Shown here piece after piece: positions 1 through 44,428 of a stretch of 55,168 nucleotides of DNA. A model generated the notes under the pieces. It was not told the origin of the DNA and searched no databases. It saw only the letters and a program-made list of their open reading frames with translations. Origin of the DNA: Bdellovibrionales bacterium RIFOXYC1_FULL_37_79 (GTDB lineage: Bacteria > Bdellovibrionota > Bacteriovoracia > Bacteriovoracales > Bacteriovoracaceae); NCBI GenBank assembly GCA_001770015.1, contig MEQB01000059.1:1-55168 (forward strand), in the 5' to 3' direction. Position 1 is the first letter of the stretch. Every line of letters begins with the position of its first letter. The position numbers and the translations under genes are program-made.

Positions 1-1103
1 ATGATGGTGGAGTTAAATGCTGGGGATTTGATTATTATAGACAGTGTGATGTTCCATCTCTTCGAAAAGTTTTGGAAATATCAGCTTTCGAGAATACTTC
101 ATGTGCGATTGATGAATCTACTATAGGTGTTAAAAGAAAAATTTGTTGGGGATCAAACGTCAAGATAGAAATTCTTTTTCCCAATCTTGATCATTTCGAC
201 AATATAATTAGCGAGATTGGTTATCAGTGTGGTTTTTATAAGGGATTGGTTGAGTGCTGGGGAAAAAATCTTGGCGGTCTATTAACAATACCAGAATTAG
301 AGGCTCCAAAGCGAGTTGCGGTAGGTATTACGCACGCATGTGCCTTTGATGACAGTGGTGCGAAATGCTGGGGCAGCAACCAATACGGGCAAACCGATGT
401 TCCGCCTCTTAAAAATCCAAGACAAATTGCGCTTGGAATATTTTATACCTGCGCTCTGGATGATGATAGGATTAAATGCTGGGGAAAAGATGTTGTTGAT
501 TTAGCAATAAATAATTCCTACGGAAATTATGTGATTGTTGCAGATCAGGATAAGTTTGATCGAATAGCAAAAGATCAAGGGACAGTTTCAAATAATCTCT
601 CAAATGGTTTACCGATGTTTTTATCTTACGTCTTCAAAAACGAACTCCGCTTCTTTTACTCTTTCGATAGAATGTTCGGAGAAAAACTATTCAAGATTCT
701 TTATCCTGGATCAAAGTATTCTAAGTTAATGACCTTCTTCCATTCAGAACTCAAAAAAGAAATGGGACTGATCGATCCAGAAGGGCAGTATCATTTCTTA
801 TGGAATAAATTCATCTATCTTCCTTTTGATCATGACTATTTTAAAGATGCAGGTGCTCCGAGTAATGACGAGGAAAAAGGACAATTATTAAATGCGTTGG
901 TGGAATCCATCAAGACTTCGTTGTCGCTTATGAACGATGAATATAAACAGCGTGCAAGTAATTTGATTTTGAAATTATCAACTAGTGTAGACGCTCAAAG
1001 TTTGAGTGAAGCAGAAGAATTTGTGACCGATGCGGGAATAAATCCGTATATAAGGCCACGAGTGAAACTTCAGATGGAGTTAATTAGGTTGCTTGGGTTA
1101 TGA
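1..1103 (+). CDS. CWG/RCC1-like repeat exported protein, paralogue 1 (5' end outside window)
   Basis: The reading frame is open from base 3 (DGVKCWG is the first readable motif), so the gene starts before the window; the ATG at 72 is internal. Five Cys-Trp-Gly blades are visible, of the types CA-x-DD-x-G-x-KCWG and QCGFYKG-x-VECWG, resembling RCC1-type beta-propeller repeats. The last ~170 residues are the domain shared with the four genes downstream (FKNELRFFYSFD near its start, RPRVKLQMELIRLLGL at the end). This copy is the most divergent in that domain (ASNLILKLSTSVDAQSL where the others have ASGIILKLVSGMSAVTL). Function is unknown; by analogy with the paralogues it is exported. Its stop TGA lies 29 bases before the next start. 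Confidence 0.85.
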   Translation, partial: DGGVKCWGFDYYRQCDVPSLRKVLEISAFENTSCAIDESTIGVKRKICWGSNVKIEILFPNLDHFDNIISEIGYQCGFYKGLVECWGKNLGGLLTIPELEAPKRVAVGITHACAFDDSGAKCWGSNQYGQTDVPPLKNPRQIALGIFYTCALDDDRIKCWGKDVVDLAINNSYGNYVIVADQDKFDRIAKDQGTVSNNLSNGLPMFLSYVFKNELRFFYSFDRMFGEKLFKILYPGSKYSKLMTFFHSELKKEMGLIDPEGQYHFLWNKFIYLPFDHDYFKDAGAPSNDEEKGQLLNALVESIKTSLSLMNDEYKQRASNLILKLSTSVDAQSLSEAEEFVTDAGINPYIRPRVKLQMELIRLLGL

Positions 1104-1132
1104 GAAATAATAAATTCGAAGAGGTGATAATA

Positions 1133-3241
1133 ATGAAAATAATGTATGTCTTGGTTTGTATTTGTGCGTGTTTGATTAGTTTTTATGCGAGTGCGGAGCA
1201 TCGCTGTAAGATTAAAGATGGAGAGGTGGTGTGTACTGGGGATAATGAGTCTGGGCAGTGCAATGTGCCTCCGCTTAAGAATCCAAGACAGGTGGTGACT
1301 GACGATGATCTTACATGCGTCCTTGATGATGAAGGAGTTTTGTGTTGGGGGTGGGATAAACACGGACGAGAATATGTACCACCTCTTCGAAAAGTATTAG
1401 AGATATTTTTTCGTTGGGAAAATACTTTATGCGCAACTGATGAATCAGACATGGGGGTTATTAGACAAGCATGCTGGGGAGAGAAAAGCACTGTCAAAAT
1501 ATTATCTCCAAATCTTGATAAATTTTCAAATATTGTTGAAGGAAAATATCACCAATGCGGTTTTTATAAAGGGTCACTTGAGTGTTGGGGCGAAAATGAT
1601 GATGGGCAAACCAATGTTCCAGCTCTTAACAACCCAAGACAAGTTGCTGTTGGAGGAAATCATACCTGTGCACTTGACGATAATGGGGTTAAATGTTGGG
1701 GATATAAGGGAACATATGGTCAGTTTAGCAATGTTCCACCTCTTCGCAAGGTGCTTGAAATTTTTGCCATGGGTAATATTTCATGTGCAATCGATGAATC
1801 GCCTACAGGAATAAAGAGAAAATTGTGCTGGGGTAATAAGGATAGTATTGAAATATTGTTTCCCAGTCTTGGTCAGTTTACCAGTATTGTAGAAGGGGAT
1901 AATTATCAATGTGGTTTTTATAACGAATCACTTGAGTGTTGGGGCAAAAATGATGAAGGACAAGCTAATGTTCCAGTTCTTGACAACACAAGACAAGTTG
2001 CAGCTGGCGGAAATCATACCTGTGCACTTGGCGATAATGGAGTAACATGTTGGGGGGATAATGAGTACGGACAAAACAATGTTCCAACTCTTGAAAACCC
2101 GAGACAAGTTGTGGTTGGAGGAAATCATACCTGTGCGCTTGACGATAACGGGGTTAAATGTTGGGGCGAAGAAAAGTATGGGTTAAATAGCGTTCCACCT
2201 CTTCGAAAAGTATTAGAAATATCTATCAGTGAAGATACCTTGTGTGCAATCGACGAATCGCTAACAGTAATAAAGAGAAAATTGTGCTGGGGTTATATGG
2301 ATAGTATTGAAATACTGTTTCCAGGTCTTGGTCAGTTTATCAGTATTGTAGAAGGTGACGATTATCAATGCGGTTTTTATAAGGGATCACTTGAATGCTG
2401 GGGAGCTAACAGGTATAATCGCTTAAATGTTCCGACTTTGAAAAGTCCAAGACAAATTGCAGTAGCCAAAAGTCACGCATGCGCACTTGATGATGATGGG
2501 GTTAAGTGCTGGGGTTATTATAGTTCCAGCACCAATGTTCCCCCCCTTAAAAATCCACAACAACTAATAGTTGGTGATTGGTACAGTTGCGCACTTGATG
2601 ATGATGAAGTTAAATGCTGGGGAACACATGCAGATCTTTTGGGGTTTAATAATTCGTATAGTGCATTTTTAGTTTTAGGTGTAGAGGACGATCTTTATAA
2701 GATTTCTCGTGATGATAATGCTGGTATAACAGATCTTTCTCGAATATTTCCAATGTTTTTGGCTTACGTCTTCAAAAACGAACTGCGCTTCTTTTATTCC
2801 TTTGATAAATTATTTGGAGAAAAACTTTTTAAGATATTTGGACTTCATTCAAAATACTCAAAACTATTTACGCTTTTTCACTCTGAGCTAAAAAAAGAAA
2901 TGAGACTCATTGATACTGAGGAAAAATATCGCTTTTTATGGAATAAGGATATTTATCTACCCTACGGCCATGAATTCTTCTCTGAAGCACAAGCTCCTTC
3001 TAACGATGAAGAAAGAGCTCAACTTTTAAATGTTTTAGTTGAATCAATCAAGACAACGATGTCGCTTATGTCTGATGAATATAAACAGCGGGCCAGTGGC
3101 ATCATTTTAAAGCTGGTGAGTGGTATGAGTGCGGTGACCCTTGATGAGACGGCAGAGTTTGTAAGCGATGCGGGATTAAATCCGTATATAAGGCCACGAG
3201 TGAAATTGCAGATGGAGCTTATACGGCTACTTGGATTATAG
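1133..3241 (+). CDS. CWG/RCC1-like repeat exported protein, paralogue 2
   Basis: The 702-residue protein starts at ATG 1133, preceded by GAGGTGATA; a longer in-frame start at 1100 would bury the signal peptide. Residues 1-21 (MKIMYVLVCICACLISFYASA) form a Sec signal. There follow about 13 RCC1-like blades, 12 of them with CWG, in two alternating kinds: CALDD-x-GVKCWG...VP-x-LKNPRQ, and LRKVLEI...CAIDES...KRK-x-CWG followed by YQCGFYKGSLECWG. Most blades carry two Cys separated by eight residues, which could form a disulfide in each blade once exported. The C-terminal ~169 residues are the family-specific domain. RCC1-like propellers usually bind proteins; the target here is unknown. Surface or periplasmic location is inferred. 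Confidence 0.88.
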   Translation: MKIMYVLVCICACLISFYASAEHRCKIKDGEVVCTGDNESGQCNVPPLKNPRQVVTDDDLTCVLDDEGVLCWGWDKHGREYVPPLRKVLEIFFRWENTLCATDESDMGVIRQACWGEKSTVKILSPNLDKFSNIVEGKYHQCGFYKGSLECWGENDDGQTNVPALNNPRQVAVGGNHTCALDDNGVKCWGYKGTYGQFSNVPPLRKVLEIFAMGNISCAIDESPTGIKRKLCWGNKDSIEILFPSLGQFTSIVEGDNYQCGFYNESLECWGKNDEGQANVPVLDNTRQVAAGGNHTCALGDNGVTCWGDNEYGQNNVPTLENPRQVVVGGNHTCALDDNGVKCWGEEKYGLNSVPPLRKVLEISISEDTLCAIDESLTVIKRKLCWGYMDSIEILFPGLGQFISIVEGDDYQCGFYKGSLECWGANRYNRLNVPTLKSPRQIAVAKSHACALDDDGVKCWGYYSSSTNVPPLKNPQQLIVGDWYSCALDDDEVKCWGTHADLLGFNNSYSAFLVLGVEDDLYKISRDDNAGITDLSRIFPMFLAYVFKNELRFFYSFDKLFGEKLFKIFGLHSKYSKLFTLFHSELKKEMRLIDTEEKYRFLWNKDIYLPYGHEFFSEAQAPSNDEERAQLLNVLVESIKTTMSLMSDEYKQRASGIILKLVSGMSAVTLDETAEFVSDAGLNPYIRPRVKLQMELIRLLGL

Positions 3242-3250
3242 GAGTTTGAG

Positions 3251-6181
3251 ATGAAAATGATTTATGTATTAGTTTATACCTTTGCTTGCATGATCAGTTT
3301 TTATGCGAGCGCGGAGCATGAGTGCAAGATAAATATGTGGGAGAAGGTAAAGTGCAACGGAGACAACAGTTATGGGCAATGTGATGTGCCTGAACTTAAA
3401 AAACCAGAGTGGGTGATGGTTGGGAAAAATCACACATGTGCGCTTGATAAAAATGGAGTTAAGTGTTGGGGTGATAATCAGTATGGGCAGACTATTGTTC
3501 CAGCTCTTAAAAACCCCAGATCAATTATTATTGATGACGACTATGCATGCATTATCGATGATACAGGTGTGAAGTGCTGGGGAGATAATCGATACGGTCA
3601 AACCAGTGTTCCCTCTCTTAGAAAAATAGTTAGATTATTTAAAGGTCCTGTCGGGCCTTGTGTAGAAGATGTATCAGAAATTGGAGTGAAAAGAGAAGTA
3701 TGTTGGGGTAACAATGTTGAAGTTAGACTATTATCACTTAATGAGAGTCAATTTAAGCCAATTGCACAGATGGAGAACTATCGGTGTGGCATTTATGATG
3801 GGTATGTGGAATGTTGGGGGAGGTTGAAAGAAAATATTCTTTATGTGATCAATGGAAAACCTGAAATGATAGCAGTTAGTAGTAGAGACTCTTTCTTTAC
3901 TCTTGATAAGGGAGAAATTAAATGCTGGGGAGATACGTATTGCCAGAAAACTCGGTTACCACCTCTTAGAAAAGTGAGAAAAATTTCATCTAGGCTTGAC
4001 GATTATAGCGGTTACCGTTTTACTATTTTCGTAGAGGATGAATCCTCTGTCGGTGTTAAAAGAAAAGTTTGCTGGGGTTATGAGCGTGATGAAGTTGAAA
4101 TACTGTCTCCCAGTCTTGATCAATTTACAGATATCGCATACGGATATGGATTTGGATGCGGATTTTACAAAAACTCTCTTGAGTGTTGGGGAAAAAATGA
4201 ATATGGAGGGGCGAGTGCTCCACTTCTTCAAAACCCAAGTCAAGTTATTGTTGGAAGGTATCACGCCTGCGCTATTGATGATAATGGTGTGAAGTGCTGG
4301 GGCGATAATAATTATGCACAAAACAATGTCCCATCTCTTAAAAATCCGAGACAAATTGCTACCTCTGATGAAAATACTTGCGCCATAGATGATGATGGGG
4401 TTAAGTGCTGGGGCGATAATAATTATGGACAAAACAATGTCCCAGCCCTTAAAAATCCGAGACAAATTGCTACCTTTGATAAAAATGTTTGCGCCATAGA
4501 CGATGATGGAGTTAAGTGTTGGGGAAATAATGAATCTGGACAAAACAATGTTCCACCTCTAAAAAATCCAAAACAAGTTGATATTGGATATCTACACGTT
4601 TGTGCTCTTGGTGATAATGGGGTTAAGTGCTGGGGAGGTAATGGGGATGGACAAACTAATGTTCCACCACTTCGAAAAGTTTTGGAAATATCAGTTGATG
4701 GTTATGTAACATGCGCATTAGATGAATCTCCTACGAGGGTTAAAAGGAAAGTTTGCTGGGGTTATAAGCGTGATGAAGTTAAAATACTGTCTCCCAGTCT
4801 AGATCAATTTACAAACATCATTGATGGAACAAAGTATCAATGCGGATTTTACAAAGGATCGGTTGAGTGCTGGGGACATAATGAACAAGGACAAGCCAAT
4901 GTTCCACTTCTTAAGAACCCTAGACAGGTTGTGATGGGATTTAGTCATACCTGCGCTCTGGATGATGATGGAGTTAAGTGTTGGGGAAACAATAGACATG
5001 GAGAAATCAATGTTCCACCTCTTCGCAACGTTAACAAATTATATGTGGATGGGTGGTACACAAGTTGTGCTGAGGATCAATCCTTGCTTGGTATTAAAAG
5101 AAGTGTGTGCTGGGGGCAAAGGCGTCAAATTAAGATATTGCAACCAAATGTGGATCAATTTACCGATATTAAGTATGCATATGGATCAAATTTTAAATGC
5201 GGACTTTATAAAAATTTTTTGGAATGTTGGGGAGATCCAGGTTTTGAAGTGACACAAATTTCTCCATTTAAAAATCCTAAGCAGGTTGTTGTGGGAAAGC
5301 ATCACGTCTGTGTTCTTGAGGATGAAGGAGTACAATGTTGGGAGGAGAGTTCCTGGCCTGCAGTAGTTCCACCGCTTAGAAATCCTCATCAAATCGCTGC
5401 AGGAGAGTTTCATACCTGTGCTTTAGATGATGATGGAGTTAAGTGTTGGGGTAATAATAGTGATGGACAAGGAGATGTTCCATATCTTGAAAAACCAAGA
5501 CAAATTGTTTCTGGAGGAAACTATACCTGTGCTATAGATGATGATGGAGTTAAGTGTTGGGGTAAAGATGCAAAACTTTTTGATTTAAACAACACATATG
5601 GTGATTTGTTGGTTGTTGGTACAAAAGATGGGATTGTAAAAATATCAAAAGAAGATAATGCTGGGGTTACTAATCTTTCTCAAGCTTTTTTTATGTTTTA
5701 TCCATACATCTTTAAAAACGAACTCCGCTTTTTTTATTCCTTTGATAAATTGTTTGGAGAAAAATTATTCAAGATTCTTCTTCCTGGATCAAAGTATTCT
5801 AAGCTTATGGCATTATTCCACTCAGAACTTAAAAAAGAAATGGGACTCATTGATAGCGACGAAAAATATCGCTTCTTATGGAATAAGGAGATTTATCTAC
5901 CTTACGGTCATGAATTCTTAACTGAACCATCTGCTCCAGAAAATGATGAAGAAAGAAAGCAGCTTTTGAATGCTTTGGTGGAATCAATCAAAACTACAAT
6001 GCCACTTATGAGTGATGAATATAAACAGCGGGCCAGTGGTATCATTTTAAAGCTGGTGAGTAGTATGAGTGCGGTGACCCTTGATGAGACGGCAGCGTTT
6101 GTAAGTGATGCGGGATTAAATCCATATATAAGTCCACGAGTGAAACTGCAGATGGAGCTTATAAGGTTGCTTGGGTTGTAG
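3251..6181 (+). CDS. CWG/RCC1-like repeat exported protein, paralogue 3 (largest)
   Basis: This is the longest family member, 976 residues with about 20 blades (18 CWG, one CNG, one CWE). It starts ten bases after the previous stop, with GGAGTTTGAG as ribosome binding site. Signal peptide MKMIYVLVYTFACMISFYASA is followed by blades of both kinds; the middle (about residues 330-480) has runs of near-identical CWGDNNYGQNNVP-x-LKNPRQIA units whose DNA is also nearly identical, pointing to recent tandem expansion. One blade (around 5335-5345) has CWE instead of CWG. The C-terminal ~170 residues match the paralogues, with a small change near the end (PYISPRVK instead of PYIRPRVK). Function is unknown. 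Confidence 0.88.
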   Translation: MKMIYVLVYTFACMISFYASAEHECKINMWEKVKCNGDNSYGQCDVPELKKPEWVMVGKNHTCALDKNGVKCWGDNQYGQTIVPALKNPRSIIIDDDYACIIDDTGVKCWGDNRYGQTSVPSLRKIVRLFKGPVGPCVEDVSEIGVKREVCWGNNVEVRLLSLNESQFKPIAQMENYRCGIYDGYVECWGRLKENILYVINGKPEMIAVSSRDSFFTLDKGEIKCWGDTYCQKTRLPPLRKVRKISSRLDDYSGYRFTIFVEDESSVGVKRKVCWGYERDEVEILSPSLDQFTDIAYGYGFGCGFYKNSLECWGKNEYGGASAPLLQNPSQVIVGRYHACAIDDNGVKCWGDNNYAQNNVPSLKNPRQIATSDENTCAIDDDGVKCWGDNNYGQNNVPALKNPRQIATFDKNVCAIDDDGVKCWGNNESGQNNVPPLKNPKQVDIGYLHVCALGDNGVKCWGGNGDGQTNVPPLRKVLEISVDGYVTCALDESPTRVKRKVCWGYKRDEVKILSPSLDQFTNIIDGTKYQCGFYKGSVECWGHNEQGQANVPLLKNPRQVVMGFSHTCALDDDGVKCWGNNRHGEINVPPLRNVNKLYVDGWYTSCAEDQSLLGIKRSVCWGQRRQIKILQPNVDQFTDIKYAYGSNFKCGLYKNFLECWGDPGFEVTQISPFKNPKQVVVGKHHVCVLEDEGVQCWEESSWPAVVPPLRNPHQIAAGEFHTCALDDDGVKCWGNNSDGQGDVPYLEKPRQIVSGGNYTCAIDDDGVKCWGKDAKLFDLNNTYGDLLVVGTKDGIVKISKEDNAGVTNLSQAFFMFYPYIFKNELRFFYSFDKLFGEKLFKILLPGSKYSKLMALFHSELKKEMGLIDSDEKYRFLWNKEIYLPYGHEFLTEPSAPENDEERKQLLNALVESIKTTMPLMSDEYKQRASGIILKLVSSMSAVTLDETAAFVSDAGLNPYISPRVKLQMELIRLLGL

Positions 6182-6190
6182 GAGTTTGAG

Positions 6191-8095
6191 ATGAAAATGA
6201 TTTATGTATTAGTTTATACCTTTGCGTGCATGATTAGCTTTTATGCGAGTGCTAAGCATAGTTGTGAGATTAAAGACGGAAAGGTGGTTTGTAGTGGGGA
6301 TAATTATTATGGGCAGTGTGATGTGCCGGAACTTAAAAATCCAAGACAAGTTGTTGCTGGAGATGACTATACCTGTGCACTTGATGATGATGGAGTTAAG
6401 TGTTGGGGAGATAATCATAGTGGACAAACCAATGTTCCACTTCTTCGAAAAGTTTCAGAAATATTTTCTCATGATGATCCCTACTCTTATGATGATCACA
6501 CCTTCTGTGCGATTGATGAATCCCTTGTAGGCGTTAAAAGAAAAGTTTGTTGGGGTTCTTTAGACAAGGTTGAAATATTGTTCCCAAGTCTTGATCAATT
6601 TTCAAACATTGTGAAGGGAGAATATCACGAATGTGGATTTTATAAAGGAATTGCTGAGTGCTGGGGAAAAAATAATTTTTGGCAAGTCGATGTTCCTCCT
6701 CTTGAAAACCCAAAACAATTTGCTTTTGGATCTGAACACACCTGCGCTTTAGATGATAATGGAGTTAAGTGTTGGGGGAATAGTTGGTACGGGCAAACCA
6801 ATGTTCCATATCTTCTAAAAGTTCTTGAAATATCAGCTACTGGAGACAACTCATGTGCAATAGACGAATCCCCTACGGGTGTAAGAAGAATCGTTTGCTG
6901 GGGTAGTAAAAGAACAATTGAAATACTATCCCCAAGTCTTGATCAATTTACAAACATTGTAAGCGGAAAAGGGCACCAATGCGGACTCAATAAAGGATTG
7001 GTCGAGTGTTGGGGAGATAGTGAATATGGGCAAGCCTATGTTCCATATCTTCGAAAAGTTCTTGAAATATTTGTTTCTGATAATACTTCATGTGCAGTAG
7101 ACGAATCCACCGTTGGTGTTAGAAGAAAAGTTTGTTGGGGACAGGAGGGGAACATTGTCGAAATATTATCGCCAAGTCTTGATCAGTTTAAAAATATTAT
7201 AAAACAAAGTAGTTATCAATGTGGATTTTACCAAGGATCACTTGAGTGCTGGGGAAATAATAATTACGGACAAGCCAATGCTCCATTTCTAAATAACCTA
7301 AGACAATTTGCTTTTGGATCTGAACACACCTGTGCACTTGATGATAATGGTGTTAAGTGCTGGGGGTCAAATTCTAATGGACAAACCGATGTCCCGACAC
7401 TTAAAAACCCTAAACAAATTGCAGCCGGAAAAGAACACAACTGTGCGCTGGATGATGATGGAGTTAAGTGCTGGGGCAAAAATGCTGATTTTCTAGATTC
7501 AAATAATTCGGATAGCGAGGTTCTTGCTTTAGGTGCAAAGAATGGTTTTTTTAAAATTTCTAGAGATGATAATGTTGGTATAACAAATTTATCAGAAATA
7601 TTTCCCATGTTCTTATCATACGTCTTCAAAAATGAACTCCGCTTCTTTTATTCATTCGACAAAATATTCGGGGAAAAACTATTCAAGATTCTTTCTCCCG
7701 GATCAAAGTATTTAAAGCTGATGGTGCTTCTACATACAGAACTTAAAAAAGGAATGGGACTCGCTGATACTGATGAAAAATATCGCTTTTTATGGAATAA
7801 GGGGATTTATCTACCTTACGATCATGAATTCTTAACTGAACCATCTGCTCCAGAAAATGGCGAAGAAAGAAAACAATTACTAAATGTTTTAGTTGAATCA
7901 ATCAAAACTACAATGCCACTTATGAGTGATGAATATAAACAGCGAGCCAGTGGCATCATTTTAAAGCTGGTGAATAGTTTGAGTGCAGTGACACTTGATG
8001 AAGTGGCAGAATTTGTAAGTGATGCAGGAATCAATCCGTATATAAGGCCACGAGTGAAGTTGCAGATGGAGCTTATAAGGTTGCTTGGGTTATGA
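6191..8095 (+). CDS. CWG/RCC1-like repeat exported protein, paralogue 4
   Basis: The 634-residue protein begins with a signal peptide almost identical to that of paralogue 3, and the ten-base junction before it (GGAGTTTGAG) is the same as the junction between paralogues 2 and 3. About 11 blades, ten with CWG, alternate between the CALDD-type and the CAIDES/CGFYKG-type. The C-terminal domain shares EPSAPEN with paralogue 3, whereas paralogue 5 has EPSAPSN, a mosaic pattern. The gene ends in the TTATGAGAAATAATAAATT junction also seen after paralogue 1. Exported; function unknown. Confidence 0.87.
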   Translation: MKMIYVLVYTFACMISFYASAKHSCEIKDGKVVCSGDNYYGQCDVPELKNPRQVVAGDDYTCALDDDGVKCWGDNHSGQTNVPLLRKVSEIFSHDDPYSYDDHTFCAIDESLVGVKRKVCWGSLDKVEILFPSLDQFSNIVKGEYHECGFYKGIAECWGKNNFWQVDVPPLENPKQFAFGSEHTCALDDNGVKCWGNSWYGQTNVPYLLKVLEISATGDNSCAIDESPTGVRRIVCWGSKRTIEILSPSLDQFTNIVSGKGHQCGLNKGLVECWGDSEYGQAYVPYLRKVLEIFVSDNTSCAVDESTVGVRRKVCWGQEGNIVEILSPSLDQFKNIIKQSSYQCGFYQGSLECWGNNNYGQANAPFLNNLRQFAFGSEHTCALDDNGVKCWGSNSNGQTDVPTLKNPKQIAAGKEHNCALDDDGVKCWGKNADFLDSNNSDSEVLALGAKNGFFKISRDDNVGITNLSEIFPMFLSYVFKNELRFFYSFDKIFGEKLFKILSPGSKYLKLMVLLHTELKKGMGLADTDEKYRFLWNKGIYLPYDHEFLTEPSAPENGEERKQLLNVLVESIKTTMPLMSDEYKQRASGIILKLVNSLSAVTLDEVAEFVSDAGINPYIRPRVKLQMELIRLLGL

Positions 8096-8124
8096 GAAAT
8101 AATAAATTTAGGGAGATTGTGATA

Positions 8125-9426
8125 ATGAAAATAATATATGCCTTGGTTAGTGTTTGTGCTTGTATGATCAGTTTTTGTGCGAGTGCAAGACATTGGTGTG
8201 AGATTAAAGATGGGAGTGTGGTTTGTAACGGGGATAATGAACATAGGCAGTGCGCAGTGCCTTCGCTTAAGAATCCAAGACAAGTTGCCACAGGGATTTA
8301 TTTCTCCTGTGCACTTGATGATAGTGGAGTTACGTGTTGGGGAGATAAAAGTTATGGACTGACCGATGTTCCACGTCTAAAAAATCCAAGGCAGATTGCA
8401 GTCGGAGGCAACAATATTTGTGCTCTTGATGATGATGGGGTTAAGTGTTGGGGGGCGTATAGTTATTCTTTTGAAAAACTTCCACTTCTTAAAAACCCAA
8501 GACAGGTTGCAGTCGGATATTCTCACGCATGTGTCCTTGACGATGATGGGGTTAAGTGTTGGGGAGATAATTATTTCCATCAAACCGAAATTCCACCTCT
8601 TCGAAAGGTTTTAAGAATATCTGCCTATGAATTCATATCATGTGCAATTGATGAATCTTTGGTGGGAGTAAAAAGATACGTTTGCTGGGGGGCGGTGCCG
8701 GATGCTGGTACTAAAATATTGTCTCCAAGTCTTGATCAATTTACAAATATTACAAACGGAGGAAAATATCAATGCGGTTTCTTTAAAAACTCGCTTGAGT
8801 GTTGGGGCGAGGGTGTTATTGATCCAGCGATTAATAACTCTTATGGTGAATATATCGTTGTTGCTGATAAGAGGAAGTTTTACAGAATTGAAAACGAGAC
8901 TAATTCTGAATTAGAAGATCTTTCTTTCGTTCCAAGTATGTTACTATCTTATATCTTCAAAAACGAACTCCGCTTCTTCTACTCCTTTGATAAAACGTTT
9001 GGAGAAAAATTATTCAAGATTTTTCCTCCGGGATCAAAGTATTCTAAGTTGATGGCATTATTCCACTTAGAGCTTAAAAAGGAAATAGGACTCATTGATA
9101 CTGAGGAAAAATATCGCTTCTTGTGGAATAAAGAAATTTATCTGCCTTATGGCCATGAATTCTTAATTGAACCATCTGCTCCTTCTAATGACGAAGAAAG
9201 AAAACCATTACTAAATGTTTTAGTTGAATCAATCAAAACTACAATGCCACTTATGAGTGATGAATATAAACAGCGGGCCAGTGGCATCATTTTAAAGCTG
9301 GTGAGTGGTATGAGCGCAGCGACTCTTGACGAGGCGGCAGAGTTTGTAAGCGATGCGGGATTAAGTCCGTATATTAGGCCACGAGTGAAATTGCAGATGG
9401 AGCTTATACGGCTACTTGGATTATGA
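8125..9426 (+). CDS. CWG/RCC1-like repeat exported protein, paralogue 5 (shortest)
   Basis: The protein has 433 residues from ATG 8125 (preceded by GGGAGATTGTG); an in-frame ATG at 8092 overlaps the previous stop but would add 11 residues before the signal peptide MKIIYALVSVCACMISFCASA. Only about six blades are present, five with CWG, followed directly by the shared C-terminal domain. So the same terminal domain occurs behind 6 to 20 blades in this family, which suggests that the domain is the fixed functional or anchoring part and the repeat stalk is variable. Function is unknown. Confidence 0.87.
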   Translation: MKIIYALVSVCACMISFCASARHWCEIKDGSVVCNGDNEHRQCAVPSLKNPRQVATGIYFSCALDDSGVTCWGDKSYGLTDVPRLKNPRQIAVGGNNICALDDDGVKCWGAYSYSFEKLPLLKNPRQVAVGYSHACVLDDDGVKCWGDNYFHQTEIPPLRKVLRISAYEFISCAIDESLVGVKRYVCWGAVPDAGTKILSPSLDQFTNITNGGKYQCGFFKNSLECWGEGVIDPAINNSYGEYIVVADKRKFYRIENETNSELEDLSFVPSMLLSYIFKNELRFFYSFDKTFGEKLFKIFPPGSKYSKLMALFHLELKKEIGLIDTEEKYRFLWNKEIYLPYGHEFLIEPSAPSNDEERKPLLNVLVESIKTTMPLMSDEYKQRASGIILKLVSGMSAATLDEAAEFVSDAGLSPYIRPRVKLQMELIRLLGL

Positions 9427-9437
9427 GGGATAGTGGA

Positions 9438-11249
9438 ATGATTAATAATTTAAGCGAAATGTGGGCGCTGCGTACCAACGGGAATATCCTGAGGGCCAAT
9501 GATTTATTTATCAAGGAAGTGGTAAAGATTGGTTACCCTCTTAATGCGGGCATCGTGGAGAAATATCAATTTCTTAAGGGAAAGACGGATATTAATTTTT
9601 TACTTCTGGATATTTCCTTTAAACGAAGTGCTTTGCATGCCAAGAGAGCACTGGATGAGGCCTTGGAGCTTCAGAAGCTTTTAGCGGAAGATAAACACTA
9701 CGAAAAAGATGGCTTTTTCTATTTACAGATGGGACTTTTTTACATGGGGGTCAGCCTTTATTCCAAGGCCTTTGATCAGTTTATCCAGGTTAGAAAAGAT
9801 AATTCCACGATGAAAGATTATTTGTACGGACGGTTTAATCTTATCCTGACGATGGAGGCGCTTGGATATCAGTATGATGAATATTTGATGGAGTTTGAAT
9901 CGGATTTTAGTTCTTATAATGGGCAGACAGATTATGAGAGCTTGATGCAGCAGTTTCTGGCCTTGAAGATCAGGTTTCATTTTTTTATTGAGAAAAACTT
10001 TTCTAAAATTGAAGAGCTGGTGTCTCGATATAAAATTGAAGGACAAGGATATTATTTTTTAAGTTTTATCGCCAAACTTCCTTGCTTTAATGTGGATAAA
10101 ATCAAAAAATATATAGAAGCACAAAAAGTATCAGTCAGTGAGAAGCATTGGCTGAACGCTTACCGCCTGCGAACTTTTAGTGAGCTTTTGGTGGTGGATG
10201 ATTTAAAAGATGATGTCAAGCTTGAATCCGTTGTCGAGCGGGTGTATTTATGGACCTGGCGCTGGTTAATGGCACCTGATACCAATCTTTTTTATAAAAT
10301 CGGGGAAGTGATTAAGCATCTGAATCTTAGGGCCCATGAGCAAGAGGTAACTCATGAGCATTACCAAATGCTGGAAAATTCTCTGCTTTGGATTTCACTG
10401 TTTCAAGGAGCAGGATCAATCTGGTGCAACGAAATTTTAAAAAAGATCAACTATGCCAAGGTCAGACCATGTGATTTCTTTTCTTATGAGAAGAAAATAA
10501 TTGAAATTTACCAGGCGCAAAAGGAAAAAAGAAATATTATTGCCGATGATATGATTTTGGAATTAACAAATATTATAACCCCGGAGTTTGTTTTACCTGA
10601 GCTACTTACTGCCAATAATATGCTTTCCTCGGGATTAAAATCACTTATTAATACTAATATTACTATTGATAAGGGTGTGGTGATTGATTTTTCCCTGATG
10701 AAGACAAGCTTTTTAAAAAATAAAAAAATATTTAAATATATTGAAAATGAACACCTGGTTAAATTGTTCAATGTGTTTGAAAATAAGATGGTGTCATCCA
10801 AACAAGAAATTCTCCTTTCTTGTTTTGGCCTAAAGGAATTTAACTACGATATTCATTCCAATAAACTTGCCAATTTATTAAGTAGGTCCAATAAGGAATT
10901 ACAAGATCTTGGTAAATTTCAAATTCGCCAGGATGTAATCAGGCTGATTGGTGATTTTAAAATTGAAGTTTTGGGGGCATGCAAACATACCTCCCAATGT
11001 TATCCATTTTGGGAAGCCATGGAGTTTGAAAAGGATATTCAAAAGGAAGCATCTTTAAGGCCCAAGCTGGATAAGCTGGCGGATAAATGGTTTTCTAGAA
11101 AGGAGTTGGAACAGATACTTAATTTTTCAAAATCCAACACCACTAGAAAAATTAATCAGTGGTGTGAAGAGAAAATTCTTCTTAAAAAAGGGTTGGGGAA
11201 AAAGACCAAATATTATTTTGTTGAAAATATAAAAGATATGTTTGTATAG
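9438..11249 (+). CDS. Large cytoplasmic helical protein with C-terminal winged-helix-like segment
   Basis: About 603 residues from ATG 9438, which has GAGGGA seven bases upstream; the alternative ATG 9423 overlaps the previous stop (ATGA). There is no signal peptide or membrane segment. The body is almost entirely helical, with a TPR-like look around residues 50-200 (YEKDGFFYLQMGLFYMGVSLYSKAFDQF). The last ~60 residues (WFSRKELEQILNFSKSNTTRKINQW then LGKKTKYYF) read as a winged helix-turn-helix. I do not recognise the family. Its position directly behind five exported paralogues suggests a regulator or cytoplasmic partner for them; that is inference. Confidence 0.8.
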   Translation: MINNLSEMWALRTNGNILRANDLFIKEVVKIGYPLNAGIVEKYQFLKGKTDINFLLLDISFKRSALHAKRALDEALELQKLLAEDKHYEKDGFFYLQMGLFYMGVSLYSKAFDQFIQVRKDNSTMKDYLYGRFNLILTMEALGYQYDEYLMEFESDFSSYNGQTDYESLMQQFLALKIRFHFFIEKNFSKIEELVSRYKIEGQGYYFLSFIAKLPCFNVDKIKKYIEAQKVSVSEKHWLNAYRLRTFSELLVVDDLKDDVKLESVVERVYLWTWRWLMAPDTNLFYKIGEVIKHLNLRAHEQEVTHEHYQMLENSLLWISLFQGAGSIWCNEILKKINYAKVRPCDFFSYEKKIIEIYQAQKEKRNIIADDMILELTNIITPEFVLPELLTANNMLSSGLKSLINTNITIDKGVVIDFSLMKTSFLKNKKIFKYIENEHLVKLFNVFENKMVSSKQEILLSCFGLKEFNYDIHSNKLANLLSRSNKELQDLGKFQIRQDVIRLIGDFKIEVLGACKHTSQCYPFWEAMEFEKDIQKEASLRPKLDKLADKWFSRKELEQILNFSKSNTTRKINQWCEEKILLKKGLGKKTKYYFVENIKDMFV

Positions 11250-11263
11250 GATAAGGGGCATTT

Positions 11264-12730
11264 ATGAAAATTGGCTTATGTTTGATAATGGTGATGTGTT
11301 CTTTTTTGACACTGGCAGAAGAAAAGTTCGTGTTGAAGGTAAAAAGTTTTCCGGATGATTTTAAGCATTTGGAAAAAAATGGTAGCGGAGTTATTATCAA
11401 GTACGGGACAAAATACTACGTATTGACTTCAGATCATGTGGTTTATCATGGGAGAATCAAGGATAAGATTACTCATGTGCTGCTTGATGAGAATGAAAAT
11501 CAGATAAAGATGGATTTGCTGGCCGCACACGTGGGAATGGGGGTAGCTCTTTTATCTATTTCGAGTGATCAAGAGTATCTAGTGAAAAATTACGTGGATG
11601 AATCACAATTTGCAAGCTTGCCAGAAATGATTGCAAGTCAATCGGTAACCACTATAGGTGTCCCTTTTGATTCTTTAAATGTGAGCGCGCATACCGGTAC
11701 GATCATCAATCCTGGAAGTGAGAGACATGAGGTGCCGCTTGCCAAAAAGCTACTGGAAGTGATGGCCCATACTGAATATGGTATGAGTGGTGGTGCCTTG
11801 ATGGATCAGACTTTGGATAAATTTTTAGGCATTATTTCTCATCAGTATCTGTTAAACCGTTTGGGACTTCCACCACTTTTAAACCAGCATAGCTCCAGTA
11901 TTGGTGGCGGTGAGGCCATGATTGGTCTTGTGATACCTGCATGGTTTATTGATGATTGGGTGAAAAAGGTCACCCAGGATATCAGCGAAAATCAATTGGA
12001 ATTTAATCTGGCTGACCAGTTAAAAGGCATTGATTCAATGACTATTGATGGCCTTCGCTTTAATTTCACCAGCTGTGTAGATGAAAAAATGGATAAAGCA
12101 ATTTTGAATGATGGAGGAGATGGGGCCGGCATTGGGGGTAATCTAAGACTGGGGAGAGGAAAAAAATGTAAGCTGAAAATTTCCCCGGTTATAAACGTTG
12201 GTGCCGATCAAGTCTGGTCTTTCCAATCTGGTGAGTGGTTCAAGACTTTGAAAAATAAACTTCGCTACCAAAATACTTACGCAGAATATAGTTCAATCTG
12301 GTTCAAACAAAATGATAAAATATTACCGGTTTATAATAGTTTGATTGATTTTTTCAAATTGATTGAAAAGGGCGGGATACCTATTGGAAAAATTTATTCC
12401 CCCTTCGTTGAGGAAAATAAAATTGAAGAAAATATTATTAAAGATACCAAAGCACTCAAAGAGCTTGTCAGTAGTATCCCTTTTTCTAGTGAAAGTGATT
12501 TGAGTGTGTTTTATTTCTATAGCAACCTCATGGAATTAATTGGTCTGCTGGAAACACCAGATCCTGTGTTTGAATATATTTCTGATGCTAAAGTCCGAGA
12601 TCTGCAAAATTCGCCGGCCTGGGATGTGATGTTTTCTAGCGAGTATTTTGATTTCGATTCTATGATCAAACTGCGCGCTTTGATTTTAAACATCAGGGAT
12701 CAGCTCAATCAAGTCAGAGTGAACATTTAG
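11264..12730 (+). CDS. Exported trypsin-like (S1 fold) protein, catalytic Asp apparently missing
   Basis: The protein has 488 residues, a signal peptide (residues 1-18) and ribosome binding site AAGGGG; it starts 14 bases after the preceding gene. The protease-like part occupies residues ~25-220: His58 sits in LTSDHVV and Ser175 in YGMSGGALMD (GxSGG). The stretch that normally carries the catalytic Asp (DLALL-like) reads GMGVALL, with Gly93 where Asp is expected. The C-terminal ~260 residues contain no domain I know. It may be an inactive protease homologue, or the acid may come from elsewhere. As last gene of the CWG block it could process or bind the repeat proteins (inference). Confidence 0.78.
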   Translation: MKIGLCLIMVMCSFLTLAEEKFVLKVKSFPDDFKHLEKNGSGVIIKYGTKYYVLTSDHVVYHGRIKDKITHVLLDENENQIKMDLLAAHVGMGVALLSISSDQEYLVKNYVDESQFASLPEMIASQSVTTIGVPFDSLNVSAHTGTIINPGSERHEVPLAKKLLEVMAHTEYGMSGGALMDQTLDKFLGIISHQYLLNRLGLPPLLNQHSSSIGGGEAMIGLVIPAWFIDDWVKKVTQDISENQLEFNLADQLKGIDSMTIDGLRFNFTSCVDEKMDKAILNDGGDGAGIGGNLRLGRGKKCKLKISPVINVGADQVWSFQSGEWFKTLKNKLRYQNTYAEYSSIWFKQNDKILPVYNSLIDFFKLIEKGGIPIGKIYSPFVEENKIEENIIKDTKALKELVSSIPFSSESDLSVFYFYSNLMELIGLLETPDPVFEYISDAKVRDLQNSPAWDVMFSSEYFDFDSMIKLRALILNIRDQLNQVRVNI

Positions 12731-12840: not shown

Positions 12841-14499
12841 ATGAAAATTGATGTAATAATTTTGTGGGTGGTTTATTTTTTGATTCTTTCTGTGGCTGGA
12901 ATAATGCTTGGAAAAATAATGGCCCATATTTTTAAAGAAAAAGGTGTCGCCCTAGAAGAAAAGATTTTAAAATTGATTGGAATAGATGCTTTCACTGCGA
13001 TGAATTGGAAAGAGTATTTATTAGCAGTAATCGTTTTTAATTTTGTGGGGTTAATACTCCTCCAGCTCATATTAATGACACAACATTGGCATCCATTTAA
13101 TCCCGAGGCAAGAAATGGGCTTTCATTTTGGATGGCATTCAATATTGCTACAAGCTTTGTAACCAATACTAATTGGCAAAATTATGGTGGGGAATCCACT
13201 CTTAGTTATTTTTCTCAAATGCTAGGACTCACGGTTCAAAATTTTTTAAGTGCTTCAACTGGTATGGCCGTATTGTTAGTTTTTATAAGAAGTTTGGTAA
13301 AAAAAGAAATTACTTTTATGGGAAATTTTTGGAGTGATTTAACTCGTTTTACGGTTAGAATTTTACTCCCTCTTTCATTTGTTTTTGCCTTATTTCTTAT
13401 ATCCCAGGGGGTACCCCAAACACTTAATGGAAGTGTTTCCGTGAAAACCTTAGAAGGAAAAGAGTTAAAAGTACCAGTTGGGCCGGTTGCTTCCCAGATT
13501 GCAATCAAAATGAATGGATCAAATGGAGGTGGTTTTTTTAATGCAAATGCTGCTCATCCATTTGAAAATCCCACACCTGTTTCTAATTTTTTTCAACTAA
13601 TAACTATTTTGTTACTCCCCGTCTCATGTGTGTTCATGTTGATCTTTATGTTACCGCGAAAACAAGAAGGATATCCGGTTTTAGGTGTCATGACGGTATT
13701 GTTACTACTCGGTGTTGTACTCTCCTATTGGGCCCAGGTGCAGACTATTCCAATAACCCATATGTCGTTTAGAGAGGGTGTTGATTCCAGATTTTCCTTG
13801 AGTGAATGTTCGTTATGGTCTGTGGCAACCACTGCCGTATCCAATGGTTCCGTTAATTGTATGCATAGTTCCTTGTCACCGCTAGCTCAATTGGTTGCAC
13901 TTTTTAATATGATGACTGGAGAAGTGATTTTTGGTGGAGTGGGTGCGGGATTATACGGGATGCTTTTATATGTTCTTATGACCGTTTTTTTAGCAGGACT
14001 CATGGTGGGGAGGACACCCGAGTATCTGGGTAAAAAAATTGAATCTAAAGAAGTCATTTGGGCCAGTTTTGCACTGCTTGCTCCGGGATTATTTAATCTA
14101 TTGTTTTCTGCGTGGGCACTCAATTTTCAGTTGGGACTTGCCTCTTTATCACACTCAGGTTCGCACGGATTAAGCGAAGTTCTCTATGCGTTTTCTTCAA
14201 CATTTGGAAATAATGGTTCTGCTTTCGCAGGATTAAACGCAAACACTACTTTCTATAATATCACTACGGGGTTCGCCATGTTATTTGGACGTTTTGCTGT
14301 GATTGTCCCCGTGTTGATTATAGCAGGTAGTCTTGGGCCTAAAAAGAAATCTCCAATTGGACCCGGAACCCTTAAAACGGATACTCTTCTTTTTGGAGTG
14401 TTATTATTCTCAGTAATTTTAATTCTTGGCGCACTGACTTTCTTCCCTGTACTTGTATTAGGGCCAGTAGCAGAACATTTGATTTTAAATATTTTTTAA
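12841..14499 (+). CDS. kdpA: KdpA, potassium-translocating subunit of the Kdp ATPase
   Basis: At 552 residues this is a normal-length KdpA, the inner-membrane K+ channel-like subunit of KdpFABC. About ten hydrophobic segments are present, and the four pore-loop signatures are readable: TSFVTNTNWQNYGGE, NGGGFFNANAAHPFENPTP, GGVGAGLYGMLLY and STFGNNGSAFAGLN. The start ATG follows GGGGTGGTCCT. No small KdpF-like membrane ORF is seen in the 110 bases upstream. It begins a coupled kdpABCDE run, so transcription is expected to respond to low K+ through KdpDE. Confidence 0.97.
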   Translation: MKIDVIILWVVYFLILSVAGIMLGKIMAHIFKEKGVALEEKILKLIGIDAFTAMNWKEYLLAVIVFNFVGLILLQLILMTQHWHPFNPEARNGLSFWMAFNIATSFVTNTNWQNYGGESTLSYFSQMLGLTVQNFLSASTGMAVLLVFIRSLVKKEITFMGNFWSDLTRFTVRILLPLSFVFALFLISQGVPQTLNGSVSVKTLEGKELKVPVGPVASQIAIKMNGSNGGGFFNANAAHPFENPTPVSNFFQLITILLLPVSCVFMLIFMLPRKQEGYPVLGVMTVLLLLGVVLSYWAQVQTIPITHMSFREGVDSRFSLSECSLWSVATTAVSNGSVNCMHSSLSPLAQLVALFNMMTGEVIFGGVGAGLYGMLLYVLMTVFLAGLMVGRTPEYLGKKIESKEVIWASFALLAPGLFNLLFSAWALNFQLGLASLSHSGSHGLSEVLYAFSSTFGNNGSAFAGLNANTTFYNITTGFAMLFGRFAVIVPVLIIAGSLGPKKKSPIGPGTLKTDTLLFGVLLFSVILILGALTFFPVLVLGPVAEHLILNIF

Positions 14500-14511
14500 G
14501 AGGTTTTTAAA

Positions 14512-16590
14512 ATGAAAACTAGCGAGATGGAAATTAAAACATTGGATTATAAGAATGCTATAAAAGATTCTTTTATAAAACTTACCGTGCAGACCCAAAT
14601 AAAAAATCCTGTAATGTTTGTGGTTTATTTTGGTTGCCTGATGGCCACAATAATATGCCTTTGGTCTTATTTTACGAACAAATTGAGTGTTTTTGATGTT
14701 CAAATTTGTATCTGGCTTTGGTTTACAATTCTTTTTGCGAATTTCGCAGAGGCAATTGCCGAAAGAAAAGGCAAGGCCCAAGCAGATACACTTAAAAAAT
14801 CGCGTACTGATCTGGTTGCGAAAGTAGTTTCAGAATCAGGTATTTCCAATCTTTCTGCGGAATTTTTAAAAAAGGGGATGATTATTCTTTGCGAAGTGGG
14901 TGACGTTATACCAGCAGATGGTGAGGTCATTGAAGGTATTGCAAGTGTGGATGAATCGGCAATAACTGGTGAATCAGCTCCAGTTATTCGTGAAGCTGGA
15001 GGAGATCGTTCAGGCGTAATGGCCGGAACCAAAGTGGTTAGTGATTATATTAAAATTTGCGTAAGCTGTGAAAAAGGGGAAAGTTATCTAGATAAGATGG
15101 TATCGCTCATAGAAGGCGCAAAAAGAAGGAAAACTCCAAACGAAATTGCCCTTAATATTCTTTTGTGCTTTTTAACATTATTGTTTATTGTTTGTGTTTT
15201 TACCCTTAAATTTTTTGTGGTTTATCTAAAAGGGGGAACATTTTCCATAGATTCAACCGAATTGCTTATTTATATTTCGCTTCTGGTTTGTCTTGCTCCT
15301 ACCACTATCGGAGCACTCCTGTCAGCTATTGGTATTAGCGGGATGGAGAGGCTTCTTCGTAGAAATGTTTTAGCTAAAAGTGGAAAAGCAGTAGAAACAG
15401 CCGGTGATATTGATATACTTCTACTTGATAAAACTGGAACAATTACTTATGGTGCTCGGATGGCATATGAAATCATTCCAGCTCCAAGCGTTTCAATTGA
15501 TGATTTGGCACGGGCCACTTTTTTGGCATCTCTCGAAGATCAAACCCCGGAAGGGAAATCAATCATTCAATATCTCTATCATAAATTTCAAGTCACAAAA
15601 TATAATATTCCAAAGGAAAGTGTTCGCTTTATTCCTTTTACTGCAGAAACCAGAATGAGTGGAGCTGACCTAATCGATGAAGATGGAAAAGCTTTTTCCT
15701 ATATTCGTAAAGGCTCAACTGAAGCAATAAAAAAATATATTTTATCCTTCAGTGGTTCATTTCCATATGAAGTGGAAGAAACTTCAAGAAATATTGCTCA
15801 AATGGGCGGAACACCATTGGTTGTATCCATTGATAAAGAAGTTCTTGGAGTGATTTATTTAAAAGATATTGTAAAAACCGGAATCAAGGAGCGATTTGAA
15901 GTTCTTAGAAAAATGGGAATACGTACTGTTATGGTGACAGGAGATAATCCTCTCACTGCTGCTACGATTGCTGCTGAAGCAGGAGTAGATGATTTTATCG
16001 CAGAGGCAACTCCTGAGGCAAAGTTAAAGCGTATTTTAAAGGAACAAAACCAAGGAAGACTGGTGGGAATGATCGGAGATGGCACTAATGATGCCCCTGC
16101 GCTTGCACAAGCTGATGTGGGAATAGCGATGAATTCAGGAACTCAAGCAGCAAAAGAAGCTGGAAATATGGTTGATTTGGATTCTGATCCGACAAAACTT
16201 CTTGATGTCGTTGAAACAGGAAAGGAGCTCTTGATGACCCGTGGTGCACTGACTACGTTTAGCATCGCTAACGATATTTCAAAATACTTTACAATTCTGC
16301 CGGCAGTATTAACAGGTGTGTTGGTGATTAATAATCATGATTTGGGAACTTATTTGAATATTTTAAATTTGGCTACACCTCAAAGCGCAATATTAAGTAC
16401 AGTTATTTTTAATGCGATTGTTATTGTTGCTTTGATTCCTGTGGCACTAAAGGGTGTAGGTAGAGTTAAAAGATCAGCGCAAAGTTTGCTAACTCGAAAT
16501 GTGCTGGTTTATGGCGTTGGTGGAATGGTTACTCCGTTTATTGCAATTAAGATTATCGATAAAATAATCACGTTTTTTTCTTTGATTTGA
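14512..16590 (+). CDS. kdpB: KdpB, P-type ATPase subunit of the K+ uptake system
   Basis: This 692-residue inner-membrane protein hydrolyses ATP to drive K+ uptake through KdpA. The P-type hallmarks are present in order: the TGES actuator motif (near residue 160), DKTGT with the phosphorylated Asp at about residue 306, and GDGTNDAPALAQADVGIAM in the hinge region. Hydrophobic helices flank these domains. It starts 12 bases after kdpA behind AAGAGGTTTT. Nothing unusual was noted. Confidence 0.97.
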   Translation: MKTSEMEIKTLDYKNAIKDSFIKLTVQTQIKNPVMFVVYFGCLMATIICLWSYFTNKLSVFDVQICIWLWFTILFANFAEAIAERKGKAQADTLKKSRTDLVAKVVSESGISNLSAEFLKKGMIILCEVGDVIPADGEVIEGIASVDESAITGESAPVIREAGGDRSGVMAGTKVVSDYIKICVSCEKGESYLDKMVSLIEGAKRRKTPNEIALNILLCFLTLLFIVCVFTLKFFVVYLKGGTFSIDSTELLIYISLLVCLAPTTIGALLSAIGISGMERLLRRNVLAKSGKAVETAGDIDILLLDKTGTITYGARMAYEIIPAPSVSIDDLARATFLASLEDQTPEGKSIIQYLYHKFQVTKYNIPKESVRFIPFTAETRMSGADLIDEDGKAFSYIRKGSTEAIKKYILSFSGSFPYEVEETSRNIAQMGGTPLVVSIDKEVLGVIYLKDIVKTGIKERFEVLRKMGIRTVMVTGDNPLTAATIAAEAGVDDFIAEATPEAKLKRILKEQNQGRLVGMIGDGTNDAPALAQADVGIAMNSGTQAAKEAGNMVDLDSDPTKLLDVVETGKELLMTRGALTTFSIANDISKYFTILPAVLTGVLVINNHDLGTYLNILNLATPQSAILSTVIFNAIVIVALIPVALKGVGRVKRSAQSLLTRNVLVYGVGGMVTPFIAIKIIDKIITFFSLI

Positions 16591-16597
16591 GGTGACC

Positions 16598-17155
16598 ATG
16601 AAAAAATTAATTTATTCATCTGTTGGGGTAGTGTTTTTGTTTACAATTGTTTTCGGGATTCTATACCCTATATCGTTAGTGTATATGGGCAAGGGACTTT
16701 TTAAAGATAAATCAGTAGGTAGTTTTATATATGATAGTAAAAGCGGGAAAATGATTGGGAGTGAACTTATTGGACAAAATTGGATCAATCCCAGGTATTT
16801 TTTTGGAAGACCATCAATAAATAATTATGATCCAATGAATTCAGGGGGAAGTCAGTACGCTCCGATTAATCCACAACTAATAAACGAGATCAAGAAAAAT
16901 ACAAAAAAATATTATCAGGAAGGTGAAAATATTCCTGATGATTTGTTACTCTCATCAGGAAGTGGCCTTGATCCCCATATTTCTGTGGAGGGAGCAATAT
17001 TTCAAATTTCTCGAATAGCAAAAGAAAGAAAACTAAATAAAGACCGTATTCGTATGCTGGTTTTAAGTCAAGTAGAGAAAAAAACGTTTGGTATATTGGG
17101 TCAAGATAGGATTAATGTATTAAAACTAAATCAAAAACTAGATCAGATGGAGTAA
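16598..17155 (+). CDS. kdpC: KdpC, stabilising subunit of the Kdp complex
   Basis: A 185-residue protein with one N-terminal membrane helix (residues ~5-28) and a periplasmic domain typical of KdpC, with GSELIGQ, FFGRPS and SGSGLDPHIS. KdpC assembles with KdpA and KdpB and supports ATP binding. I chose ATG 16598 over a GTG at 16592 because GAGGTG lies just upstream of the ATG and would itself be swallowed by the earlier start. Seven bases separate it from kdpB. Confidence 0.95.
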   Translation: MKKLIYSSVGVVFLFTIVFGILYPISLVYMGKGLFKDKSVGSFIYDSKSGKMIGSELIGQNWINPRYFFGRPSINNYDPMNSGGSQYAPINPQLINEIKKNTKKYYQEGENIPDDLLLSSGSGLDPHISVEGAIFQISRIAKERKLNKDRIRMLVLSQVEKKTFGILGQDRINVLKLNQKLDQME

Positions 17156-17174
17156 TAAGGCATATACTTAAAGT

Positions 17175-19817: not shown

Positions 19818-20536
19818 TGAGAGAAGATATGAATATTCTTCCAAAACGAATTTTGATAATTGATGATGAAATTCAAATTCAAAGATTATTAAATAGTTCG
19901 TTCTCGGCATATGACATTAAATGTATTGAGGCCATGACTGGGGCAAAGGGATTGGAGCTTGCAATTACTGAAAGGCCTGAGATGATAATTCTGGATGTTG
20001 GACTTCCAGATATTAGTGGTCTTGATGTCTTAACTCAACTGAGAAAATGGTCTAAAATACCTATAGTTATTCTTTCAGCAAAAAACGAGGAAGATACGAT
20101 TGTATTTGCATTAGAAAATGGGGCAGATGATTATGTAACGAAACCATTTGGTTTTAAAGAATTGCTAGCAAGAATTAAAACCTCATTTCGTCGGGTCATA
20201 CCTGAGGAAAATGTTGTTTTTATTTCCGGCGATTTACTGGTAGATTTTTCATCAAGAATTGTTTCGATCAAAGGAAAAGAAATTTCTTTAACCTCTACGG
20301 AGTTTGATCTTCTTAAAGTTTTTATTCGTTATGCTGGCAAAGTGGTGACTCATCAGCAGCTTTTAAGGGAGGTTTGGGGACCGCACTCTATAGAGTCACC
20401 TCAATATGTCAGAGTTTATGTGGGACATTTGAGACTAAAAATTGAGGAGAATCCACAGCGTCCAAAACATATTATAACCGAAATCGGCGTTGGCTACAGG
20501 ATGAAGTTGAAACTTGATAATACTGGAGAAGTTTGA
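19817..20536 (+). CDS. kdpE: KdpE, OmpR-type response regulator
   Basis: A 239-residue two-domain regulator. The receiver has acidic residues in IIDDE, the phosphorylation Asp60 in MIILDVGLP and Lys in VTKPFG; the C-terminal half is an OmpR-type winged helix ending RPKHIITEIGVGYRMK. Phosphorylated by KdpD, it should activate kdpA transcription. The start at 19817 overlaps the kdpD stop (TAATG); ATG 19829, four codons in, is a possible alternative. The stop TGA overlaps the ATG of the next gene. Confidence 0.95.
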   Translation: MREDMNILPKRILIIDDEIQIQRLLNSSFSAYDIKCIEAMTGAKGLELAITERPEMIILDVGLPDISGLDVLTQLRKWSKIPIVILSAKNEEDTIVFALENGADDYVTKPFGFKELLARIKTSFRRVIPEENVVFISGDLLVDFSSRIVSIKGKEISLTSTEFDLLKVFIRYAGKVVTHQQLLREVWGPHSIESPQYVRVYVGHLRLKIEENPQRPKHIITEIGVGYRMKLKLDNTGEV

Positions 20537-43998: not shown

Positions 43999-44428
43999 AG
44001 AGATTAGTTTTTTTGAAACAATTTTTAACACTTGTATGAGTGTAACGGATTACTATGTCTACTTATGGAAAAAATGTTAAAAATATGAATAAAAAATCAA
44101 AAAACAGTAAAAATATTTCTTCGCTGATAAATAATAATGGTTTAACTGGAGTTTATTGAGAAGGAAAATTTTGAAAATGAAGAAACAGGAAAATGATTCA
44201 AAACCCATAGTAAATAAAGCTTCAAACCCGGATTTGGTTCAAGTCCAATTCCTTCGCTTGCCTCCCAAAATGTCCTAAGTTATCGTTTTGAAATCAAGTA
44301 TGGCATAGTTCGGGCCTTATTTTGTCCGGAAGCGAATGAATTCTAAAACTTATTTAAAAGAGTTACCTTGTGTGCAATTGAGTATTCTTACAAATAATGA
44401 TAATCGTTTTAATAATCTGGAAATAATT
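43999..44428. other. Gene-free region downstream of the IS91 remnant
   Basis: 430 bases between the transposase remnant and the protease gene. GGTTCAAGTCC at 44237-44247 looks like a tRNA T-arm, but no matching acceptor, D- or anticodon arm is present. The frame 44336-44428 in phase with the protease is probably untranslated, since the signal peptide begins at 44429. Confidence 0.4.

Follow-up and report, generated by a model that had tools for sequence, protein, structure and literature searches.

A tandem array of predicted exported RCC1-type repeat proteins within a recurrent operon of a Bdellovibrionales bacterium

What kind of proteins are encoded by the tandem repeat genes at one contig end of Bdellovibrionales bacterium RIFOXYC1_FULL_37_79, how have these genes multiplied, and with which other genes might they work? 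We analyzed a 55,168-nucleotide stretch beginning with the first base of this contig, C59 (hereafter, the window). Five paralogous genes, g1 to g5, occupy positions 3-9426 on the plus strand and are separated by 9-bp gaps or joined by 4-bp ATGA overlaps (Table 1). The RCC1_2 family (PF13540) scored above the Pfam cut-off in all five (E-values of 1e-6 to 2e-60), which bears out the five co-directional RCC1-like paralogues proposed in an earlier sequence-only reading of this DNA. The range of 6 to 20 blades given there was also recovered: we counted 13, 20, 11, and 6 units in the complete genes g2 to g5 and at least four in g1, a short N-terminal half unit being included in these counts. A tandem-repeat search of the array DNA yielded periods of 111 bp and longer. 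As judged by eye, each complete protein begins with a short hydrophobic stretch that ends in AxA and resembles the expected signal peptide; in g2, an alternative start lies 11 codons in, behind a GAAGAGGTG. Export is accordingly a prediction for g2-g5, the start of g1 not being visible. All five proteins end in a common 205-aa domain, as had been noticed before, with copies 66-75% identical to that of g5.

Table 1. Genes and domains of the array and of the two genes that follow it (window coordinates; N, N-terminal half unit; A, B, and C, unit types)
Feature	Position	Strand	Remarks
Paralogue g1	3..1103	+	5' open at contig start; partial unit, B, C, A, A, C-terminal domain
C-terminal domain of g1	486..1100	+	Helices after a short beta-hairpin segment, as in the g2 and g5 models
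Paralogue g2	1100..3241	+	713 aa; 13 units (N A B C A B C A A B C A A), C-terminal domain
C-terminal domain of g2	2624..3238	+	
Paralogue g3	3251..6181	+	976 aa; 20 units, C-terminal domain
C-terminal domain of g3	5564..6178	+	
Paralogue g4	6191..8095	+	634 aa; 11 units, C-terminal domain
C-terminal domain of g4	7478..8092	+	
Paralogue g5	8092..9426	+	444 aa; 6 units (N A A A B C), C-terminal domain
C-terminal domain of g5	8809..9423	+	
Regulator-like protein	9423..11249	+	608 aa; TPR-like N-terminal part, C-terminal winged helix; ATGA overlap with g5
Exported Trypsin_2 protein (HtrA/MarP-like)	11264..12730	+	488 aa; His58 and Ser175 kept, Gly93 at the canonical Asp

The closest solved structure was BLIP-II, both by sequence (E-value of 1e-30) and by fold (BLIP-II complexes, E-values of 3e-12 and 3e-16), and the array proteins are thus supported as RCC1/BLIP-II-type repeat proteins with predicted export. 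The propeller fold expected in the sequence-only reading was obtained in part. AlphaFold models of g2 (mean pLDDT 72.0, pTM 0.50, most units at 80-90) and g5 (mean pLDDT 63.5, pTM 0.43, A units at approximately 85-94) contained RCC1 blades, whereas the ring was closed in neither; highly repetitive propellers are hard to model (PMC9218822). With the seven-bladed BLIP-II/RCC1_2 propellers the array proteins share export, the best PDB sequence and fold matches, and 37-aa CALDD-GVKCWG units, and a relative in the Bdellovibrionaceae bacterium UBA2466 represents a single-ring-sized version with seven units. In contrast to these propellers, the array proteins have 6, 11, 13, or 20 units, a B-C unit pair, and a helical C-terminal domain, and are encoded by tandem genes within an operon that includes regulator and trypsin-like genes. 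Together with a hairpin from the C-terminal domain, 6, 13, and 20 units would total 7, 14, and 21 blades; g4 has 11. Exactly seven units occur in UBA2466 and in the RCC1 relative at a second locus of the same genome (contig C32), and 13 units occur twice at locus L135. The values of 6, 13, and 20 and those of L135 are suggestive of a strict seven-blade rule, but g4 does not fit and the rings stay open in the two AlphaFold models; the rule was therefore not adopted.

The repeat units fall into three types. A units have 37 aa and the pattern NPRQV...CALDDxGVKCWG, B units (LRKVLEIS...) mostly have 42 aa, and C units (VEILSPSLDQF...) have 37-39 aa; every B is followed by a C, making the B-C pair obligatory (unit 17 of g3 and unit 6 of g5 were set to C from their sequence, over the automatic labels). 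Neighboring A units of g3 share 90% DNA identity, a two-unit block is repeated within g0, a sixth paralogue described below (units 15-16 versus 5-6, 85-89%), and unit 3 of g0 matches unit 2 of g1 at 91%. These identities support duplication of whole genes as well as of blades, and the closest pairs within g3 and g0 point to recent events. Highly repetitive, recently amplified beta-propellers have been surveyed previously, with RCC1/BLIPII among the most populated groups (Pereira and Lupas 2022, PMC9218822). As in those propellers, blades duplicate within genes; however, the units described here are moderately diverged, belong to three types in fixed order, and are distributed across several tandem genes of a conserved operon.

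Divergence is distributed unevenly along the units. Among unit pairs at least 75% identical, dN/dS was 0.60 in loops and 0.09 in strands; by segment, the two turns reached 0.86-0.87, and the second and third strands had 0.03-0.08. Since the pairs are not independent of each other and no value exceeds 1, the ratios indicate a constrained scaffold and weakly constrained loops, rather than proven positive selection. The earlier suggestion that the repeats are binding platforms agrees with these profiles insofar as loops diversify and strands are constrained, as they would be in such platforms. Relaxed constraint, however, accounts for loop values below 1 as well as diversifying selection does, and such values are also what would be seen if repeat-prone genes had grown neutrally by unequal recombination, with copy and blade numbers having no adaptive role. 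The 11 units of g4, which break the series of 6, 13, and 20, and the frequency of highly repetitive RCC1/BLIPII propellers among bacteria (PMC9218822) would also be in line with neutral growth. We consider it unlikely, given that six of six copies have intact frames, that strands (dN/dS of 0.09) and the C-terminal domain are strongly constrained, and that tandem RCC1 copies recur within the operon in three other lineages.

The C-terminal domain starts with a two-strand hairpin and continues with helices in the AlphaFold models of g2 and g5. It had no match in Pfam or NCBIfam and no significant match in the PDB, and it was not found in one other genome of the genus (85% complete). Its helical part is constrained (dN/dS of 0.11-0.17), and its first 45 codons range from 0.12 to 0.98. 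The sequence-only reading confined variation to the number and arrangement of the blades; both do vary, but divergence also affects the blade loops and the initial ~45 residues of this domain. In iterated HMM searches, the C-terminal domains of RCC1 proteins from the regulator loci described below grouped together and excluded the tails of RCC1 proteins from elsewhere, whereas HHalign profile-profile comparison among the C-terminal domains gave no significant probabilities. Two other genomes of the family carry adjoining large RCC1 genes (L110, 2307-9421; L111, 4459-11471) with C-terminal parts of a different family.

The array is truncated, since the window opens with the first base of contig C59. 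Contig C71 (5,752 bases) carries a gene for a 231-aa exported helical protein followed by the sixth paralogue, g0 (610 aa, 16 units, 3' open), which runs off the contig end. A relative of this helical gene also stands before the RCC1 gene of the genome's second locus, and C71 is therefore probably the segment immediately upstream of C59, which would give an array of at least six genes; comparison of the two contigs found no exact overlap, and the adjacency is therefore drawn from gene content. A match between the helical upstream protein and the C-terminal domain was borderline (E-value of 0.012), and we do not claim that the two are homologous. A further 231-aa protein with a signal-peptide-like N-terminus is encoded upstream of the second-locus helical gene (L010, 8626-9321, minus strand).

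The sequence-only reading ended at position 9426 and thus missed the regulator-like and trypsin-like genes that appear to share an operon with the array. A single operon is suggested by the gene spacing and overlaps and by the homologous second locus, at which genes for an exported helical protein, an exported seven-unit RCC1 protein, a regulator 28% identical to the 608-aa protein, and a trypsin-like protein follow one another. The array operon is directly followed by an ordinary-looking kdp potassium-uptake operon (12841-20536; KdpA, KdpB-type ATPase, KdpD sensor kinase, and response regulator), and further along the window, positions 28429-30786 encode a 785-aa protein without a Pfam match at an E-value of 1e-4. 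For a profile of 21 regulator members, the best TPR match was an engineered TPR protein near the N-terminus (E-value of 9.5e-9); the winged-helix matches were all weak (MarR_2 in 9 of 21 members, best E-value of 3.6e-5; HVO_A0261_N in 10 of 21). These matches hint at a putative DNA-binding TPR/winged-helix regulator.

The trypsin-like protein resembles HtrA/MarP-type proteases (Trypsin_2, PF13365) in that the profile covers the catalytic domain (MarP 3k6z, E-value of 1.7e-8; HTRA1) and the catalytic His and Ser are kept. It differs from them by the loss of the canonical Asp and by a long C-terminal part that is specific to the family and contains a GGxDGxGIGG-like motif. Among 17 trypsin-like sequences from the regulator loci, the catalytic Asp column holds Gly in 16 and His in one. 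Fifteen of the 17 retain both of the other catalytic residues, His and Ser. Two tandem trypsin-like genes follow the regulator at L126 (10138-13004), L127 (9775-12644), and L134 (2226-5056), and the first copies at L126 and L127 (L126a and L127a) are the two that have lost His and Ser. Two more trypsin-like genes lie in the window outside the array operon (44336-45409 and 50565-51932); the product of the second, an unrelated Trypsin_2 protein taken as a control, has Asp at the catalytic column. The sequences suggest that the trypsin-like partner may be inactive; another acidic residue may instead substitute for the catalytic Asp.

A profile built from five regulators was run on 369 genomes of the phylum, and approximately 20 further strong regulator loci were obtained. 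Strong regulators occur in 4 of 129 genomes of the order and in roughly 20-25 of the 369 phylum-sample genomes; the gene set is thus accessory and sparse in the phylum. Of 24 testable loci, four of them training loci, 20 have the trypsin-like gene immediately after the regulator, as do 16 of the 20 outside the training set, although the loci are not fully independent, L145 and L146 coming from one genus. Loci L128, L137, L143, and L147 have no trypsin-like gene; G036, L139, and L142, whose sequence stops short, were left out, and L140 and L141, being nearly identical, count as one locus. Relatives of the helical protein are encoded upstream at seven new loci, and an RCC1-type protein is encoded, usually upstream, at approximately 13 loci (C59, C32, G036, G015, G075, L125, L129, L130, L132, L133, L135, L138, and L139). 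G036, G015, and G075, from the same family, carry relatives of the gene set, and in G075 the RCC1 gene sits after the trypsin-like gene. The RCC1 proteins of L129, L132, and L138 are degenerate and were recognized mainly via the C-terminal domain, and at some loci other exported proteins take the RCC1 position. Tandem RCC1 pairs are present at L133, L135, and L139. The search for the array in related genomes, proposed in the sequence-only reading, thus revealed an operon that recurs across the phylum, with tandem RCC1 copies in three other lineages. Neither RCC1 nor trypsin-like neighbors were seen at weakly related winged-helix loci (L094-L105).

Elsewhere, the Myxococcus protein MXAN_0889 of M. 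xanthus has RCC1 repeats and is found in outer-membrane vesicles (PMC4158809), and Bdellovibrio RCC1-repeat proteins have been annotated as RTX toxin (PMC5941755); in contrast to the present case, no operon or common C-terminal domain is described in the passages of these two reports that we consulted. The databases and literature searched contained no earlier description of the operon. A role in anti-phage defense was rejected, PADLOC having returned nothing beyond trypsin-domain matches of a generic kind (LmuA, RT-Protease) and one weak match each for an HTH domain and for the C-terminal domain (the latter with an E-value of 0.0098). Plasmid carriage and phage families received no support either.

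The UBA2466 contigs L015 and L130 share an exact overlap of 23 bases. SecD encoded on L015 is 100% identical to that of G286, a genome of the same phylum as the window, which places this phylum among the Bdellovibrio relatives. Joining the two contigs yields a gene for an exported protein of 281 aa, made up of exactly seven units of 37 aa each; this gene ends 102 bp ahead of the regulator, which in turn is followed by the trypsin-like gene. This minimal version, with one seven-unit propeller, a regulator, and a trypsin-like gene, is what would be expected if the propellers bound and controlled the co-encoded trypsin-like protein, much as BLIP-II, their nearest solved relative by sequence and fold, binds beta-lactamase; the trypsin-like gene is also the most constant neighbor of the regulator. 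Such an inhibitor or adaptor role nonetheless appears quite improbable, because at least five or six propeller genes stand against one trypsin-like gene here, no RCC1 gene was seen at L126, L127, and L134 with their two trypsin-like genes, an inhibitor aimed at one conserved target would have no need of diversified loops, and a protease that has lost the canonical Asp is less likely to need inhibition. The phylum includes predators, and the predicted export, the diversified loops, and the amplification of genes and blades would suit surface or secreted receptors by which a predator recognizes prey or host cells. This we hold to be quite improbable as well, since presence in 4 of 129 genomes of the order argues against core predation machinery and no outer-membrane anchor was seen.

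The safest reading is that the array encodes a set of RCC1-type binders that are exported, have multiplied through duplication of genes and blades, and belong to a conserved operon. Our preferred explanation, to which we assign a probability of about 0.5, is that the array is the amplified, diversifying exported binding component of a conserved operon under its own regulator. The blades would assemble into propeller rings, which in the simple members probably have seven blades, and the variable loops would contact ligands, either proteins or glycans, in the periplasm or extracellularly. The C-terminal domain would act as a common docking part, perhaps for the helical or the trypsin-like protein, and the winged-helix protein would control the operon. 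Duplication of whole genes and of blocks of one to several blades would then supply binders differing in reach and specificity. More tentatively, and with distinctly less confidence, the operon could encode an exported recognition system that has so far gone undescribed in the phylum and is somewhat reminiscent of a variable-receptor locus in bacteria, in which a constant part (the cytoplasmic TPR/winged-helix regulator, the HtrA-like protein, and the exported helical protein) is combined with variable, amplifiable RCC1 propellers; the HtrA-like protein with its lost Asp may there act as a sensor or scaffold.

The Gly-for-Asp trypsin-like family poses a separate, directly testable question of enzymology. 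The locus itself offers a concrete, testable system of predicted exported propellers that expand in both gene number and blade number in Bdellovibrio-like bacteria, and if these propellers bind variable targets, it would represent a bacterial route to a repertoire of binders through blade duplication.
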